Notes under the pieces: model-generated | What the model was told of the DNA's origin: nothing | What the model saw: the letters and a program-made list of their open reading frames with translations, nothing else | Database searches by the model: none | Program-made: the position numbers and the translations under genes | NCBI GenBank assembly: GCA_013373105.1 | Contig: JABXIJ010000002.1 | Span: 28,167 to 92,166 of the forward strand | From: Flavobacteriaceae bacterium | GTDB taxonomy: Bacteria; Bacteroidota; Bacteroidia; Flavobacteriales; Flavobacteriaceae | Direction of reading: 5' to 3' | DNA length: 64,000 nt | Shown here: piece by piece, positions 19,978 to 26,994 of the stretch | How the letters are laid out: each line of letters starts with the position of its first letter | Position numbering within the stretch: the first letter of the stretch is position 1

Positions 19978-21057
19978 TTGTATGCAATTCTAGATATAGA
20001 AACTACTGGGGGTAAATTTAACGAAGAAGGAATTACAGAAATAGCCATTTATAAATTTGATGGCCATACTACTTTAGATCAATTTATTTCACTCGTAAAT
20101 CCTGAAAAACCTATACAAGATTTTGTTGTAAAGCTAACTGGTATAAACAACAAAATGTTACGAAATGCACCTAAATTTTATGAAGTTGCAAAACGTATTG
20201 TAGAAATTACTAAAAATTGTATTCTTGTTGCACATAATGCAGCTTTCGATTACAGAATTTTAAGAACAGAATTTCAACGGTTAGGTTTCGACTTTGAACG
20301 AAATACTTTATGCACAGTTGAATTAAGTCAGCAATTACTTCCAGATCAAAAATCTTATAGCTTAGGTAAACTTACAAAATCTTTAGGAATACCAATGTCT
20401 GAAAGACATAGAGCAAGTGGAGATGCTATAGCAACTGTGAAGCTTTTTCAGTTATTATTACAAAAAGATTCTAATAAAAGTATCATTCAAAACTCCGTTA
20501 AATTTTTCGATAAAAGATTAGATAAAGAGAAACTTTTAAACCTAATAGAATCTATTCCAGCAGTTTCTGGCATATTTTATGTGCATGATACTAATGGAAA
20601 GGTAATTTACATTGGTAAAGGACATAATATAAAGCATGAAATTAATAAGCTTTTTTTAAAGGTTACAAAAAGAGCTATTAAAATTCAAGAAAGAGCAAGT
20701 TCTGTAACTTTTGATAGAACAGGAAATGAGTTATTTACTAGATTAAAATATTACATAGAATTAGAAAAACTTTCACCAAAATTTAATTTCAGAAAAAAGT
20801 TTAAACTAAAACTTGAAAAATTTAAAAGTGATAATTTCTTGATAATCGATAAAGGAAGAGAAGTTGAAGAACATTCTGTAATTTTAATCGAAAACAATGA
20901 AGTTTTTGGCTTTGGTTATACAAATCTTGCATTTCAAAAAAACAATTTATCAATTTTAAAATCGATATTAACGGTTTTTGAGGATAAAGAAATGGCAAAA
21001 ACTATTATAAAAAATTATTTACATAGACATAAAGTCCAGCAGATAATAAGGTTTTAA
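19978..21057 (+). CDS. DEDD exonuclease fused to a GIY-YIG domain
   Basis: A 359-residue fusion. Residues 1-165 are a DnaQ-like 3'-5' exonuclease with all three motifs: DIETTGG, HNAAFDYRIL and HRASGDA. Residues about 195-285 are a UvrC/Cho-like GIY-YIG domain (GIFYVHD..VIYIGKG). The Arg of the UvrC-type KKR motif appears as Glu221 in IKHEINKLF, and the GIY Tyr is Phe, so the second nuclease may be inactive. The start is TTG, the only possibility after an in-frame TAG at 19966. Family members are thought to act in DNA repair or proofreading. Gene order does not add more. Confidence 0.85.
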   Translation: MYAILDIETTGGKFNEEGITEIAIYKFDGHTTLDQFISLVNPEKPIQDFVVKLTGINNKMLRNAPKFYEVAKRIVEITKNCILVAHNAAFDYRILRTEFQRLGFDFERNTLCTVELSQQLLPDQKSYSLGKLTKSLGIPMSERHRASGDAIATVKLFQLLLQKDSNKSIIQNSVKFFDKRLDKEKLLNLIESIPAVSGIFYVHDTNGKVIYIGKGHNIKHEINKLFLKVTKRAIKIQERASSVTFDRTGNELFTRLKYYIELEKLSPKFNFRKKFKLKLEKFKSDNFLIIDKGREVEEHSVILIENNEVFGFGYTNLAFQKNNLSILKSILTVFEDKEMAKTIIKNYLHRHKVQQIIRF

Positions 21058-21137: not shown

Positions 21138-22628
21138 ATGAAAAAGCTCACTATTCTCTTCGCATTTCTGTTCATCTCATTCTCTAGTTTCTCACAAGAT
21201 TTAGATGATGAGTTTGGAACTGGTTTAGAATTTGATCAAAACCTTTATGAGTCTGTTCCACAAACAGTACCATTGGTAACAAGAAGCTTTACTGCTTTAC
21301 CAAGCTCTTACAGTTTAAAAGCCTATACTCCTACTCCTAAAAGTCAGGGAAGGCAAGGCTCTTGTGTAGGTTGGGCAAGTGCATATGGAGCTAGAACAAT
21401 TGCTTACGCTGTTAAAAGAGGATGGAGAGGACAAACCTCTAAAATTACAGCTAATGCATTTTCACCTTCTTTTGTTTACAATCAAATTCGAGTAAACGAT
21501 AATTGTGCAGGATCCTATATAGAAAAAGCTATGGATTTAATGAATAGAGAAGGTGCAGCAAAGCTAAATGAGTTTATTTATACAGACCAAAATTGCACGA
21601 CAGTTCCATCTTATAACATAAAAAGCAAGGCTAAAAACAATAGAATTTTAACTTACGAAAGATTAGCAAAATGGAATAACCCATACAACTTAGTTGGTAA
21701 AGTGAAAAAGGCTATTTCTAGCCAAAAGCCAGTAGTTATTGGTTTATTTAGATACAACAGACTAATCTTAGATCAAAATCATGTTTGGATTCCAAATTCA
21801 GGTAATAAAGGTCATGCTATGGTTGTTGTTGGTTATGATGACAATAAAGCAGGAGGTGCTTTTGAAATTATGAATTCTTGGGGAACACGTTTTGGAAATA
21901 ATGGTTTTCTATGGATTAAATATGCAGACTTTGAAAGACAAGTTAAAACAGCTTATGTTGTTGTAGATAAGGCTAATGACTTTAATAACAACAATATTAA
22001 TATTAACAACAATAATAACAATAATAACAATAATAAGAATAATAATATTTCTTATACTTCAAATAAATTAGGAGGTGAATTAACTTTAAAACTTAGTAAT
22101 GGTGCTAATATGCCAATAAGTTTATCTGAAGGTGCTACTAGAAATTTTAATATTGTAAAAGCAACTAAAACAACTTATAAAGTAAATCAAACTTATACTT
22201 CAGGAACTCAATTTAGAATTTACTTAAAAAGCAAACAAACAGGTTATGTGTATTTGGTAGGCTATGGAGCATCAGACAAATCTGTAAGTAAATTGTATCC
22301 TTTTGCTAATTACAGTGATTATTTTAGTTACGTAAATAGTGAAATTGCAATTCCAAATGAAGATTATTTTATTGAGTTCGACAACAAACCTGGAAGAGAT
22401 ATTCTTTGCGTATTGTACAGTAAAGAAAAATTAGATATCAATAGTATTGTAAACAAAGTTAGATATGGTAATGGCGATTTTGTAACTAAAATGAAAAACG
22501 CATTATCTAGCAAAATGTTTAAGGGTACTAGTGTAAAATTTAGCAGTGATAAAATTTCTTTTGATGCAACATCTACAAGCAGTACTGCTAAAGTTGTTCC
22601 TATATTTATAGAAATGAATCATCAATAA
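21138..22628 (+). CDS. Secreted papain-like (C1) peptidase with DUF4384-like tail
   Basis: A 496-residue exported cysteine peptidase. Residues 1-20 form a signal peptide ending FSQ. The C1 catalytic set is complete: Cys76 in QGSCVGWA, His226 in GHAMVVVGYD and Asn246 in MNSWG. A run of about 25 mostly Asn residues (near 282-305) forms a linker. The last 180 residues resemble DUF4384, with FRIYLKSKQTGYVYLVGY and a KLYPF strand; this beta domain is found on other peptidases, often caspase-like ones. The next gene, 6 bases on, encodes a secreted caspase-like protein with similar Asn-rich linkers, so the two probably act together outside the inner membrane. The DUF4384 call is from memory of the family. 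Confidence 0.85.
   Translation: MKKLTILFAFLFISFSSFSQDLDDEFGTGLEFDQNLYESVPQTVPLVTRSFTALPSSYSLKAYTPTPKSQGRQGSCVGWASAYGARTIAYAVKRGWRGQTSKITANAFSPSFVYNQIRVNDNCAGSYIEKAMDLMNREGAAKLNEFIYTDQNCTTVPSYNIKSKAKNNRILTYERLAKWNNPYNLVGKVKKAISSQKPVVIGLFRYNRLILDQNHVWIPNSGNKGHAMVVVGYDDNKAGGAFEIMNSWGTRFGNNGFLWIKYADFERQVKTAYVVVDKANDFNNNNININNNNNNNNNNKNNNISYTSNKLGGELTLKLSNGANMPISLSEGATRNFNIVKATKTTYKVNQTYTSGTQFRIYLKSKQTGYVYLVGYGASDKSVSKLYPFANYSDYFSYVNSEIAIPNEDYFIEFDNKPGRDILCVLYSKEKLDINSIVNKVRYGNGDFVTKMKNALSSKMFKGTSVKFSSDKISFDATSTSSTAKVVPIFIEMNHQ
21983..22046 (+). repeat. AAT/AAC trinucleotide repeat encoding poly-Asn linker
   Basis: About 64 bases made almost entirely of AAT and AAC codons in frame, coding an Asn-rich linker between the peptidase and DUF4384-like domains. 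Short related tracts occur in the following caspase gene (near 23258 and 23839). Such tracts can change length by slippage without breaking the frame when units of three are lost or gained. Confidence 0.85.
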
Positions 22629-22634
22629 AAAATT

Positions 22635-25600
22635 ATGAAAATTCTACAAAACTTATTTTTCACCTTTTTATTAATATTAGTTACACCAGTCTTTTCTCAA
22701 AGCAGTAATTATGCTTACCAAGAAGAGTTTAGTAGTAAAGGAAACTGGCCAACTGGTAATAACAGTACAAGAGAACTAAGTGTCTACAATGGAAGCTATT
22801 ACTTTGAGCACAAAAGAAAAAAAGAATCTTGGAAAGTTACTACAAGAGAGTTTAACCTAAATATGTATCAAGATTTTGAAATAGAAACATCTATTCAAAA
22901 AATTTCTGGTGTACAAGATTATGGAACAACTTTCATGTACGATTATAAAGATAACGACAATTACAGAGAATTAGGGTTTACCTCTACTGGCTATTTTAGA
23001 GTTGCAGAATCTGTTGGCGGAAAATACAAAAACTTAAAATCTTGGACTAAGTCAAGTGCCGTAAAAACAGGTAATTACGCTACAAATATTTTAAAAATAT
23101 CTAAAAAAGGAAATACCATAACATTCTATGTGAATGGATCTTATGTGTACTCTACTACTCATAAAAACTTTATGGGTAAAAAGATGGCTTTTATGCTCTA
23201 CAGAAATCAAAAAATATCTATTGATTATGTAAGAGCAAAACAAGGATCGTCTTATAATAACAATAACAACATTAAAAAAACAACCTCTAAATCTATTTTA
23301 TTTGAAGGATTTACAAACAATAATAACAAATGGTCTACAGGAAGCTCTAAAGATCATTCATTAGCAATAAGTGGTGGCGATTATATTTTCGAACATAAAA
23401 GAGCTTCTGGTTCTTGGTTAACTTGGACAAAAAAATACATAAACACCTCTAGAAACTTCTATATAACAGCACAATTCAAAAAAATTAGTGGTATAAATAA
23501 TAATGGATTTGGATTAGTTTTTGGAAGAAAAGATAATGATAATCAAAACCAATTTTTTATATCGAGTAATGGCTATTACATGATTAAAAAAGAAGAAAAT
23601 GGAAAGGTTACCAATCTAAGAAACTGGACTAAATCTAGCACAATAAAAACTGGAAATGGGCAATACAACTATCTAAAAATTCAAAAAGAAGGAAGTGCTT
23701 ATAAATTTTATATAAACAACACATTGGTCTATACAAGTTATAGCATTAAATTCTACGATCAAAATACAGGTTTTGTTGTTTATAACAAACAAAAAATTAG
23801 TATCGGTTATCTCAGTATGATGTACACTGATGATGGTACTAATAACGATAATAACAATAATAACATAGATAACGTTACTATTGTTGATAATATTAGTAAC
23901 TACAGATATAATGATTCAGATTTTGATTTTAGCGACCAGTTTAATGACAATAAAAATGGTTGGTCAATAAAAAATGATAATGTTCGTGAATTTAAAATAA
24001 ATGATGGTAAGTATTACCTAAATCATAAGAGAACTGAAAAAGGTTATTTAACTTATAGAGATACTTATATAGACACCAATAGAGATTTTGAAATAGAAGC
24101 AAAAATTGATAAAATTAGTGGTGTAAGCAACTATGCTTATGGATTACTCTTTGGTGGTAAAGGAAAAGATGAGTTTAGATTTTATATTTCTTCAGGAGGT
24201 TATTACAAATATTCAAGAATTGTAGACGATAAAGAACAAAATATTCTTAAATGGACAAAAACAAGTGCAGTTAACACAGGTAATTCAAAATCAAACGTTT
24301 TAAAAATTAGAAAAGAGAATGATCAACTTAAACTTTATGTTAATGGCACTTATTTAGCTAAAACAGATTTTGAAGACTTTTATGGTAATAATTTAGGTTT
24401 TTCATTATTTAATAAACAAGTAATTGCTATAGATTATTTAAGAGTAAAATATATATCTAACAATAATATAATTGCAAAAAAAATAAGTGCTCCCTTAAGA
24501 GACGATTTTTCTTACAATACTAATAAATGGATTTTAGAAAATCAGACTAACTATTCTGTAGACATGAGTAATAGTAAGCTCTTAATTCATAGAAAAACTA
24601 AAGGTGGAATTTTTATTAGTAGGGAGGTTAATATAGATACTTACAAAGATTTTGTAATAGAAACATCAATTAGCCATACCAATACATCATCTGGTTATTA
24701 TGGATTCACTTTTGGTAGAAAAAACTCCTCAAATGAATTTTCTTTCTTGCTCTCTGGTAATGGAAGTTATAAATATAGAAAGTTTGAAAACGACCAATAC
24801 AAAGAAATAATAGCAAACTCCTTTTCTAGTGCAATAAATAAAGGGACTAATGAGGCAAACGTTATTAAACTAGTTAAATCTGGAAGTATATTAAGATTCT
24901 ATATTAATGGGCAGTATGTAAATGAAACACCATTTGAGAAATTCTACGGAGATAAAATTGGATATACAGTTTATCATGATAGAAAAATTGCTGTTGATTA
25001 TTTAGATATTAAATACCAAACAGAAAAATTCAACAGTCCTCCTATTGTTGAAATATTAGAACCAAGAGTAGAAAGAGGATTTAAAGTAGTAAAAACTAAG
25101 CGAATATTAGTTAAAGGTAAAGCTACAGATGCAGATGGTATATTCGAAATTATGGTGAATGGCGTTGAAGCAAATTATAATCCAAGTGATGGCATATTTA
25201 CAGCTAGCGTTCCTTTAAAGTATGGAGAAAATAAATTGATTGTAAATGCTACAGACATGAAACAATCTAAATCTAATAAAGAATTTGAAATTATTAGAGA
25301 ATCTCCAAACAATAACGAAACTATTGTAGATAACAACATTAAAAAACCTGAAAAGTTAGATGTTGGTTTTGGTAAATATTATGCTTTAATAATTGGGGTT
25401 AGTGATTATGAAGACCCTAAAGTACAAGATTTATTAGGAGAACCTACAAAAGATGCAGAAGCTTTAGCAGATGTTTTAAATACTTATTACAGCTTTCCTA
25501 AAAGTAATATAACTATTTTAAAGAATCCTACTGCAGCAGATATTAAGAGAAACTTTGTAATTCTTAGAAAAAAAGTTACCAAAAACGACAATGTTTTAAT

Positions 25601-26087
25601 CTTTTATGCTGGTCATGGTAATTACAATAAACAAATGGAATACGGTTATTGGATGCCAGCAGATGTTCAAATGGAATTTGAAGAGAATATTGTTTTAAAT
25701 ACAGAAATTGTTACGTATTTAAGAACAATAAAATCTAAGAATACTTTATTAATCTCAGATGCATGTTTTAGTGGAAGTATTTTAGTCAAATCTAGAGCTT
25801 ATAAAGACGCTTCTAAGGCTGTACAAATTAAACATGATACAGAAAGTAGAAGAGCAATTACTAGTGGTACATTAACAACTGTACCTAATAAAAGTATCTT
25901 TATGAAATATCTACTAAAATTACTTAGAGAAAACAAAGAACCCTATTTCTCTGCATCAGATATTTACCAAAGACTTGAAGTTGCAGTGTTGAATAATGGA
26001 GGTGAAAACCCTCAAAAACCAGTATATGCTCCAATTAGTCAAACAGGTGATATGGGAGGAGATTTTTATTTCATCAAAAAAAACTAA
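22635..26087 (+). CDS. Secreted caspase-family (C14) protein with four LamG-like repeats
   Basis: A 1150-residue exported protein. A signal peptide ends at VFSQ (about residue 22). Residues 28-795 hold four related beta-sandwich units of about 180-190 residues sharing DFEIE..I.KISG, WTKSSAV.TGN and FYGxxxGF; units 1-2 and 2-3 are joined by Asn-rich linkers. A short Ig-like domain (about 798-890) precedes the C-terminal caspase domain from residue 912, opening YYALIIGVSDYED. The catalytic pair is intact: His994 in YAGHG and Cys1044 in DACFSGS. It follows the papain-like gene by 6 bases. The repeats resemble LamG/DUF1080-type glycan-binding folds, so a carbohydrate or cell-surface target is possible. 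Target and trigger are unknown. Confidence 0.88.
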   Translation: MKILQNLFFTFLLILVTPVFSQSSNYAYQEEFSSKGNWPTGNNSTRELSVYNGSYYFEHKRKKESWKVTTREFNLNMYQDFEIETSIQKISGVQDYGTTFMYDYKDNDNYRELGFTSTGYFRVAESVGGKYKNLKSWTKSSAVKTGNYATNILKISKKGNTITFYVNGSYVYSTTHKNFMGKKMAFMLYRNQKISIDYVRAKQGSSYNNNNNIKKTTSKSILFEGFTNNNNKWSTGSSKDHSLAISGGDYIFEHKRASGSWLTWTKKYINTSRNFYITAQFKKISGINNNGFGLVFGRKDNDNQNQFFISSNGYYMIKKEENGKVTNLRNWTKSSTIKTGNGQYNYLKIQKEGSAYKFYINNTLVYTSYSIKFYDQNTGFVVYNKQKISIGYLSMMYTDDGTNNDNNNNNIDNVTIVDNISNYRYNDSDFDFSDQFNDNKNGWSIKNDNVREFKINDGKYYLNHKRTEKGYLTYRDTYIDTNRDFEIEAKIDKISGVSNYAYGLLFGGKGKDEFRFYISSGGYYKYSRIVDDKEQNILKWTKTSAVNTGNSKSNVLKIRKENDQLKLYVNGTYLAKTDFEDFYGNNLGFSLFNKQVIAIDYLRVKYISNNNIIAKKISAPLRDDFSYNTNKWILENQTNYSVDMSNSKLLIHRKTKGGIFISREVNIDTYKDFVIETSISHTNTSSGYYGFTFGRKNSSNEFSFLLSGNGSYKYRKFENDQYKEIIANSFSSAINKGTNEANVIKLVKSGSILRFYINGQYVNETPFEKFYGDKIGYTVYHDRKIAVDYLDIKYQTEKFNSPPIVEILEPRVERGFKVVKTKRILVKGKATDADGIFEIMVNGVEANYNPSDGIFTASVPLKYGENKLIVNATDMKQSKSNKEFEIIRESPNNNETIVDNNIKKPEKLDVGFGKYYALIIGVSDYEDPKVQDLLGEPTKDAEALADVLNTYYSFPKSNITILKNPTAADIKRNFVILRKKVTKNDNVLIFYAGHGNYNKQMEYGYWMPADVQMEFEENIVLNTEIVTYLRTIKSKNTLLISDACFSGSILVKSRAYKDASKAVQIKHDTESRRAITSGTLTTVPNKSIFMKYLLKLLRENKEPYFSASDIYQRLEVAVLNNGGENPQKPVYAPISQTGDMGGDFYFIKKN
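22719..25020 (+). repeat. Four tandem ~190-residue repeat units inside the caspase gene
   Basis: Unit starts are near 22719, 23293, 23921 and 24501. Conserved landmarks recur in order: a D/E-x-F start with a W about 12 residues on, KISG (absent from unit 4), an FGRK/FGGK strand, WTKSS, FYINGxxV, and a closing IDYL. Unit 4 is the most diverged. The similarity is at protein level; DNA identity is not obvious by eye, so the duplication is old. Confidence 0.8.
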
Positions 26088-26131: not shown

Positions 26132-26550
26132 ATGGATCAAGAGTTTTTAATTTTACATTTTCAGCAACAGGATGTTAAAGCCTATGAAAAACTATACAAT
26201 ATGTATTGTAATAGTATTGCTGGTGTAATAAACAATATCGTGAAAGATAATGATGTTACTCAGGAAATTACACAAGATGTATTTATAAAAGCTTGGAATA
26301 ACTCTGCTTCTTACTCATCAAAAAAAGGTCCGTTTTTTCACTTGGTTGCTTAACATTGCAAGAAATGCTGCCATAGATTATACAAGATCTAAGAAATTTA
26401 AACAATCTAAACAAAACCTAAACTCAGATTTTTTCGTAGATATAATAGTAAGCAATGATAACTTAGATGCAAAAGTAAATGCAATAGGTTTAAAGAAGTA
26501 TGTAGAGAAGCTTACATAAACATGTAAGTCTGTAATAGAGTTACTTTACT
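26132..26550 (+). pseudogene. ECF sigma factor pseudogene (frameshift, nonsense and 3' deletion)
   Basis: The frame from 26132 encodes sigma-70 region 2 (VKAYEKLYNMYCNSIAG, then QEITQDVFIKAWNN). At about 26330 an extra C (GGTCCG where GGTCG would continue the protein) shifts the frame. One frame over, the text resumes as RFFTWLLNIARNAAIDYTRS, the region 2.4 DNA-binding helix. A TAA interrupts at 26517, after which KSVIELLYF, the start of region 4, can still be read. The rest of region 4 is gone and the sequence runs straight into an anti-sigma gene. Three independent lesions make a sequencing error unlikely as the whole cause. It follows the two secreted peptidase genes. Confidence 0.88.
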
Positions 26551-26994
26551 TTAGAAGATCAAATAGTTAAAGAAAGAATTCGTTTAGAAGGTATGATTGA
26601 AGATTCATACAATAGTTTAGCAGAAACAGAAAAACTTTTAAACATCTTTAGAGATAAAGATATTATTACAGTTCCTTTAGCTGGTCAAAAAGCTTCTCCT
26701 GAAGCCTATGCTAAAGTATACTGGGATAAGAAAACAAACTCTATTTATTTAGATGCAAAAGGGCTACCAGTTCCTCCTAAAGGAAAAGTGTATCAGGTTT
26801 GGTCTTTAACCCTAGATCCTTTAACTCCAACAAGTTTAGGTACTATAGATAACTTTACAGTAGATACTAATAAGATATTTACCATATCTAATACAAATTC
26901 ATCAGAAGCCTTTGGTATTACTTTAGAACCTGAAGGAGGAAGTAAAACTCCTACTCTAGAACAATTGTATACTTTAGGTGCAATTTCATCTTAA
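26551..26994 (+). pseudogene. Anti-sigma factor (RskA-like) 3' fragment
   Basis: From about 26551 the frame encodes a coiled-coil-like segment (EDQIVKERIRLEGMIEDSYN), then the periplasmic RskA C-terminal domain with AYAKVYWDKKTNSIYLDAKG, VPPKGKVYQVWSL and EAFGITLEPEGGS. These match the ends of flavobacterial anti-sigma factors. The N-terminal sigma-binding domain and the transmembrane helix are missing, so the 133-residue ORF in the track (start 26593) cannot anchor or bind a sigma factor. A deletion has joined it to the middle of the sigma gene. It could still be translated as a soluble stub, but no start site is convincing. Confidence 0.82.

Follow-up and report, generated by a model that had tools for sequence, protein, structure and literature searches.

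The main finding of this work is a pair of adjacent genes, encoding an exported papain-like protease with a DUF4384 tail and an exported caspase with an array of LamG-like domains, which recurs as a unit in the genus and, with other arrays on the caspase, in distant phyla. Across the pairs compared, the pattern is one of a constant C1-DUF4384 partner and a caspase whose putative sensor part is exchanged, and that the two proteases would work together is well supported by these sequence comparisons. It seems reasonably likely, judging from gene content and predicted structure, that the pair constitutes one extracytoplasmic two-protease module, probably located in the periplasm or the envelope, in which the DUF4384 domain would provide the coupling and the array of the caspase would act as the sensor.

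Organization of the gene pair

The two genes lie within the window (the whole stretch of DNA that was analysed, 64,000 nucleotides) and comprise the following features:

21138..22628, + strand: gene 1, for the constant component, an exported 496-aa papain-like C1 protease ending in a DUF4384 tail (Pfam, structure and PDB match, relatives)
21138..21197, + strand: signal peptide, aa 1-20, MKKLTILFAFLFISFSSFSQ (by inspection)
21306..21965, + strand: C1 protease domain with Gln70, Cys76 (codon 21363-21365), His226 and Asn246 (Pfam, alignment, model, PDB match)
21984..22049, + strand: disordered Asn-rich linker, aa 283-304, lineage-specific (pLDDT <50)
22191..22427, + strand: DUF4384 core, aa 352-430, within a larger beta domain at aa ~305-496 (Pfam, model)
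22635..26087, + strand: gene 2, for an exported 1150-aa caspase with the LamG array as its exchangeable part (NF047832, PADLOC, model, Foldseek)
22710..25016, + strand: four LamG/LNS-like domains, at 22710-23243, 23292-23825, 23922-24452 and 24495-25016 (model, structure matches)
25044..25298, + strand: Ig-like domain (PF09136-like), directly N-terminal of the caspase (Pfam, relatives, model)
25302..25367, + strand: disordered segment joining the Ig-like domain to the caspase, aa 890-911, differing between orthologs (alignment, model)
25377..26084, + strand: caspase domain with His994 (25614-25616) and Cys1044 (25764-25766) (NF047832, PADLOC, alignment, model)
Within the caspase domain, + strand: predicted S1-pocket acids Asp940 and Asp1042, and a disordered loop at aa 1053-1068 (alignment, model)

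Both reading frames are intact and on the same strand, with a stop-to-start gap of 6 bases. The N-termini of both proteins resemble Sec signal peptides, and a crude signal-peptide rule was positive in 78 of 96 family members, as compared with 330 of 893 other ORFs; a Pfam search detected no type IX sorting tail in either protein. The Asn-rich linkers are real and, among the ORFs of the window, confined to these two proteins. The sequence-only reading of this DNA had described two adjacent exported proteins with complete catalytic sites, 6 bases apart and both with Asn-rich linkers, and the residues, folds and signal peptides reported here confirm that description. Scans for an operon promoter or terminator gave scores no better than those of shuffled sequence, and no paralogs of the pair were found elsewhere in the genome. 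Just downstream (26133-26994), an apparently broken ECF sigma factor, recognized by eye only, whose frame is disrupted following a poly-A run and by a stop further on, is followed by an anti-sigma ORF (26593-26994) with an RskA_C domain (PF10099, E 2e-16); this stretch may be a decayed sigma/anti-sigma pair or an assembly error.

The papain-like protease

The product of gene 1 belongs to papain family C1, as shown by its fold and by its Gln/Cys/His/Asn set. It matched PF00112 with an E-value of 9e-13 (49.2 bits, cut-off 20.7) and the DUF4384 family PF14326 with 4e-8 (33.8 bits, cut-off 27), and had no match among the NCBIfam models. AlphaFold with a 45-sequence alignment gave a confident two-domain model (pLDDT 88.7, pTM 0.87), in which DUF4384 is a folded domain; in the PDB this model is matched best by xylellain, a papain-like protease of bacterial origin (E 5.5e-17). 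Gln70, Cys76, His226 and Asn246 are invariant in all 80 full-length C1-DUF4384 relatives. The I29 inhibitory prodomain, which is common in C1A zymogens and optional for membership in family C1, had no Pfam match in this protein, and only ~35 residues separate the signal peptide from the catalytic domain.

The caspase and its LamG-like array

The four beta domains of the gene 2 product, of ~178 aa each, find their best fold matches in the PDB among neurexin LNS and laminin LG domains, with galectin matches as well, and Foldseek aligned the repeats to neurexin 1 alpha LNS1-6 (E 2.6e-19). By sequence, no Pfam match to LamG was obtained in the repeats; the "LamG-like" label given to them earlier therefore proved right at the level of the fold, as judged from structure prediction. 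A sequence search of the PDB returned no relatives of this protein.

PF00656 did not match the window caspase itself, and matched its ortholog from the same genus at 1e-13; plain Pfam annotation would thus miss this caspase. The domain is matched by NF047832 (E 5e-17, 62.1 bits, below the curated cut-off of 140) and by the PADLOC caspase model, and its assignment to the caspase superfamily (C14) follows from a His-Cys dyad, GHG and DxC motifs and the p20 fold. His994 and Cys1044 are invariant, the catalytic set being intact in 62 of the 62 domains compared. That either protein of the pair might lack its catalytic fold is set aside by the models, both of which display it. An Asp is conserved in the KDA-type motif (61/62) and another in DxC (62/62), and these are predicted, as in the T. 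brucei MCA2 structure, to form an acidic S1 pocket. Since cleavage after Arg or Lys is expected from the acidic S1 pocket of orthocaspases and metacaspases, these residues predict the same specificity for the window caspase.

Co-occurrence of the two genes within the genus

The C1 gene was found in 14 of 60 genomes of the same genus, and the LamG-caspase gene adjoins it in those same 14, while the 44 assessable genomes besides carry neither (Fisher p 1e-12, without correction for relatedness). In G515 the caspase-side match is a fragment at a contig end and cannot be judged. G519 encodes, elsewhere in its genome, an 830-aa LamG-array protein with no caspase domain, and has no C1 gene, which indicates that the C1 gene tracks the caspase domain and not the array. 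In all 14 carriers the pair occupies one chromosomal slot beside an exonuclease gene (window 19978-21057), and in 17 non-carriers the slot is cleanly empty, with the exonuclease gene and an ion-channel gene 15-346 bp apart as read from the coordinates. This finding indicates that the pair has been gained and lost as a unit. The two proteins also co-diverge beyond the yardstick set by the exonuclease (partial r 0.50, 0/2000 permutations); such co-divergence, like the co-occurrence, can also be expected of linked genes that simply travel together, by inheritance or by transfer.

The earlier proposal that the two proteins are components of one proteolytic system beyond the inner membrane gains support from this strict co-occurrence, and the recurrence of the pair in the genus and in distant phyla disposes of the concern that it might exist by chance in one strain only. 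In eight relatives, a DUF3857/transglutaminase-like exported protein (L028:10764-12716), missing in the window, lies between the exonuclease and the C1 gene. We also considered a defence island and rejected it: the pair sits at a fixed slot among housekeeping genes, and the PADLOC match is to a generic caspase model only.

C1-DUF4384 proteins in distant lineages

A C1-DUF4384 profile search of the genome collection yielded 80 loci, in Bacteroidota, Chlorobiota, Rhodobacteraceae, Sulfurovum and Spirochaetes. In 56 of them a caspase gene lies immediately before or after the C1-DUF4384 gene, on the same strand and mostly within 50 bp. The caspase profile was built from linked caspases and is biased toward finding linked ones; a PF00656 survey is independent of it and less sensitive. 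PF00656 matches occurred in only 106 of 297 Bacteroidota genomes, and we therefore estimate chance C1-caspase adjacency at well under 1%. Within this sample of 297 genomes, ten full-length loci fall outside a clade with cytosolic-looking N-termini, and nine of them have a caspase no more than three genes away; none of the six loci inside that clade does.

The remaining 24 of the 80 loci have no directly adjacent caspase, some of them being at contig ends; at one such end (L107) the start of a protein resembling the WD40-caspase partners is visible. At L031 and L032, both from the family sample, a secreted M48 metallopeptidase takes the place of the caspase. Taken with the caspase-free loci, these indicate that the caspase is not an obligatory partner. 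The M48 gene is present there in one to three exported copies, with a small uncharacterised exported protein between. At L085 the gene preceding C1-DUF4384 encodes a TPR-CHAT protein. The caspase-free clade (L184, L185, L186, L187, L188, L117) has a Gly-rich N-terminus, mostly starting MPIRM, with no evident signal peptide, and offers a natural control for the role of DUF4384 in the absence of a caspase. In Flavobacteriaceae, WD40-caspase partners were observed at L029, L030, L033, L095, L107, L112 and L121, with Porph_ging (GLPGLI) proteins and a CarboxypepD_reg outer-membrane barrel protein upstream of these pairs. A CHASE2 membrane protein of ~390 aa lies by C1-DUF4384 at ten loci with a caspase or M48 partner (L178, L177, L179, L031, L032, L067, L069, L070, L076, L114), often with an uncharacterised exported protein of ~260-310 aa.

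The partner caspases span several deep subfamilies and do not form one clade. On the caspase tree, a quick tree from which change counts are rough, the C1-linked label has to change 15 times, and well-supported branches force no fewer than 6 of these changes. Their active-site motifs differ (DACFSG, DACRNN, DACQSA, DVCFGG, DICHSG), as do their N-terminal parts, which are LamG-like, TPR, WD40, MORN, Sel1, WG, or OmpA plus WD40; an Ig-like domain often precedes the caspase. Because the arrays of other pairs are TPR, WD40, MORN or Sel1, glycan binding cannot be the general function of the array. The adjacency at 56 of 80 distant loci and the re-pairing with different caspase subfamilies add further weight to the two-component claim of the sequence-only reading. 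Its suggestion of a cascade through cuts in the Asn-rich linkers did not hold as a general mechanism: across the family the linker between C1 and DUF4384 has a median length of 10 residues, is of low conservation and is Asn-rich only near the lineage of the window. The Asn-rich linker was accordingly discarded as a conserved cleavage site, being short and poorly conserved in most of the family; cleavage there could still take place in the window's own lineage.

DUF4384 and its association with caspases

DUF4384 is present in 39 genomes of the 297-genome sample and, outside the C1 proteins, 21 of its 33 matches are fused to a caspase or lie within three genes of one (our own count). Together with its presence on cyanobacterial orthocaspases (PMC7475262), this agrees with the earlier remark that DUF4384 is often fused to caspases. 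One DUF4384 family (L222, L223, L225) has no caspase neighbours. The domain looks like a caspase partner that may be located in cis or in trans, a role that would explain why the DUF4384 tail is found here on the C1 protease rather than on the caspase. In the literature searched, only five papers name DUF4384.

A recurrent layout of three genes was seen at L207, L204, L210, L211, L212 and L213, where a WD40-caspase is followed first by a short exported protein with DUF4384 and then by a CHASE2-cyclase, the last annotated as a CHASE2-adenylate/guanylate cyclase in L207 and L211. It may represent a related system in which a caspase is linked to cyclic nucleotides.

Proposed mechanism and alternative explanations

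From these patterns we infer physical contact between the two proteins, the sensing of a ligand, an order of activation and a set of substrates. We hypothesize that the LamG array binds a ligand, which may be an envelope or foreign glycan or a protein, and that binding would bring the caspase into an active, self-processing state. The DUF4384 domain would tie the papain-like protease to the caspase and in this way let one of the two activate or deliver its partner. The caspase is favoured as the initiator, the one reason for this direction being that it carries the sensor array, and the papain-like protease would be the executioner, acting with or after it.

The order may also be the reverse: C1-DUF4384 would then activate the caspase by cutting it either within aa 890-911, the Ig-caspase linker, or within aa 1053-1068, the loop that follows Cys1044, and the array would aim the caspase, as the effector, at a target. 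Both segments are predicted to be disordered, the C1 protease, lacking an inhibitory prodomain by Pfam, may be active on export, and the C1 protein is what stays the same from pair to pair. However, the linker varies in length and sequence among orthologs, and in some lineages a C1-type protein occurs with M48 or with no second protease, and we regard this order as rather unlikely. Still less probable is that the two are envelope proteases for turnover or nutrient digestion, sharing a promoter and co-inherited with no signalling between them. Such a role would suit the 6-base gap and the common orientation, which suggest co-transcription, as well as LamG-like domains, which often bind sugars or extracellular proteins, and the accessory nature of a pair that is absent from most of the genus; yet it sits badly with the repeated pairing of C1-DUF4384 with caspases of several subfamilies, in either gene order, the general tie of DUF4384 to caspases calls for a functional link, and TPR and WD40 arrays are atypical of digestive enzymes.

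A function in conflict or cell death, in which the pair senses envelope damage or invasion and responds by killing or lysing either its own cell or a competitor, is likewise unlikely, at a level between the two foregoing explanations. The combination of a constant component with a caspase bearing exchangeable domains resembles the EACC1-caspase conflict system (PMC7159879), the PADLOC caspase model matches, and the presence of the pair is patchy, with empty sites. Against this, the pair includes no immunity gene and no known defence gene, its neighbours are housekeeping genes at a fixed slot, and the proteases are extracytoplasmic, where most known anti-phage effectors do not act. Returning to the module in which the caspase would sense and the papain-like protease execute, a broader version can be put forward only tentatively: a widespread, undescribed envelope signalling system, in the form of a caspase-papain relay with the DUF4384 protease constant and the sensor arrays (LamG, TPR, WD40, MORN, Sel1, WG) exchanged according to the signal. 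If true, such a relay would parallel, outside the cell, the scheme of initiator and executioner proteases.

Significance and comparison with known systems

To our knowledge, caspase genes are widespread in bacteria, but partners or roles are known for few of them, and they are mostly discussed as cytoplasmic. A recurrent, exported caspase with a fixed second protease amounts to a defined unit of two genes, open to deletion and reconstitution, and the pair gives DUF4384 a role; if the proteases regulate each other, it would be an extracytoplasmic protease relay with exchangeable sensors. The C1-DUF4384/caspase pairing was not described in the literature searched, outside the scope of which lay most subscription journals and preprints, and no publication found there combined "caspase family protein" with "C1 family peptidase". 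This suggests that the two-protease system is unreported in that literature, the limited coverage of which leaves novelty unproven.

Among known systems, xylellain and the bacterial C1A proteases (PDB 3ois) share the papain fold and the catalytic set with the window protein, whereas identity to xylellain is only 22%, and the DUF4384 tail and caspase partner are features of the window protein. CHASE2 modules have been found beside caspases, and CHASE2 also lies near some C1-caspase pairs (e.g., L067, L069, L070, L076, L114, L177, L178, L182); CHASE2-cyclase genes come after caspase-DUF4384 genes, and in the genome of the window a CHASE2 gene with an exported 260-aa neighbour is on another contig, away from the pair. 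Prokaryotic orthocaspases and metacaspases, as far as the portion of PMC3501461 consulted goes, likewise combine a caspase domain with protein-interaction repeats, namely WD40, TPR or Sel1 arrays, some with possible signal peptides, and proteolysis genes were noted in 23 of 217 of their operons; that portion neither names the C1-DUF4384 pairing nor mentions a LamG-Ig-caspase architecture.

The EACC1-caspase system (System 4, Kaur et al. 2020, PMC7159879) is also made of two adjacent genes, with one conserved component and a caspase-superfamily protein fused to many alternative domains. Its constant component, however, is a membrane helix protein and not a papain-like protease with DUF4384, and its caspase is N-terminal with the variable domains C-terminal, whereas here an Ig-like domain leads into a caspase at the C-terminus. 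A further difference is that the two window proteins bear signal peptides. Membership in that system was rejected: NF047832 scored 62.1 bits against 140, no EACC1 gene (short, with one membrane helix) lies next to the window caspase, and the neighbour is the 496-aa C1-DUF4384 protease. The trypsin-pseudo-orthocaspase-DUF4384 fusions of Alphaproteobacteria (PMC6426788) bring a second protease, a caspase p20 domain and DUF4384 together in one unit, as here; these are single proteins with a trypsin-like protease and a mutated (Gln-Cys) dyad, whereas the window pair consists of two genes, with a papain-like protease and an intact His-Cys dyad.
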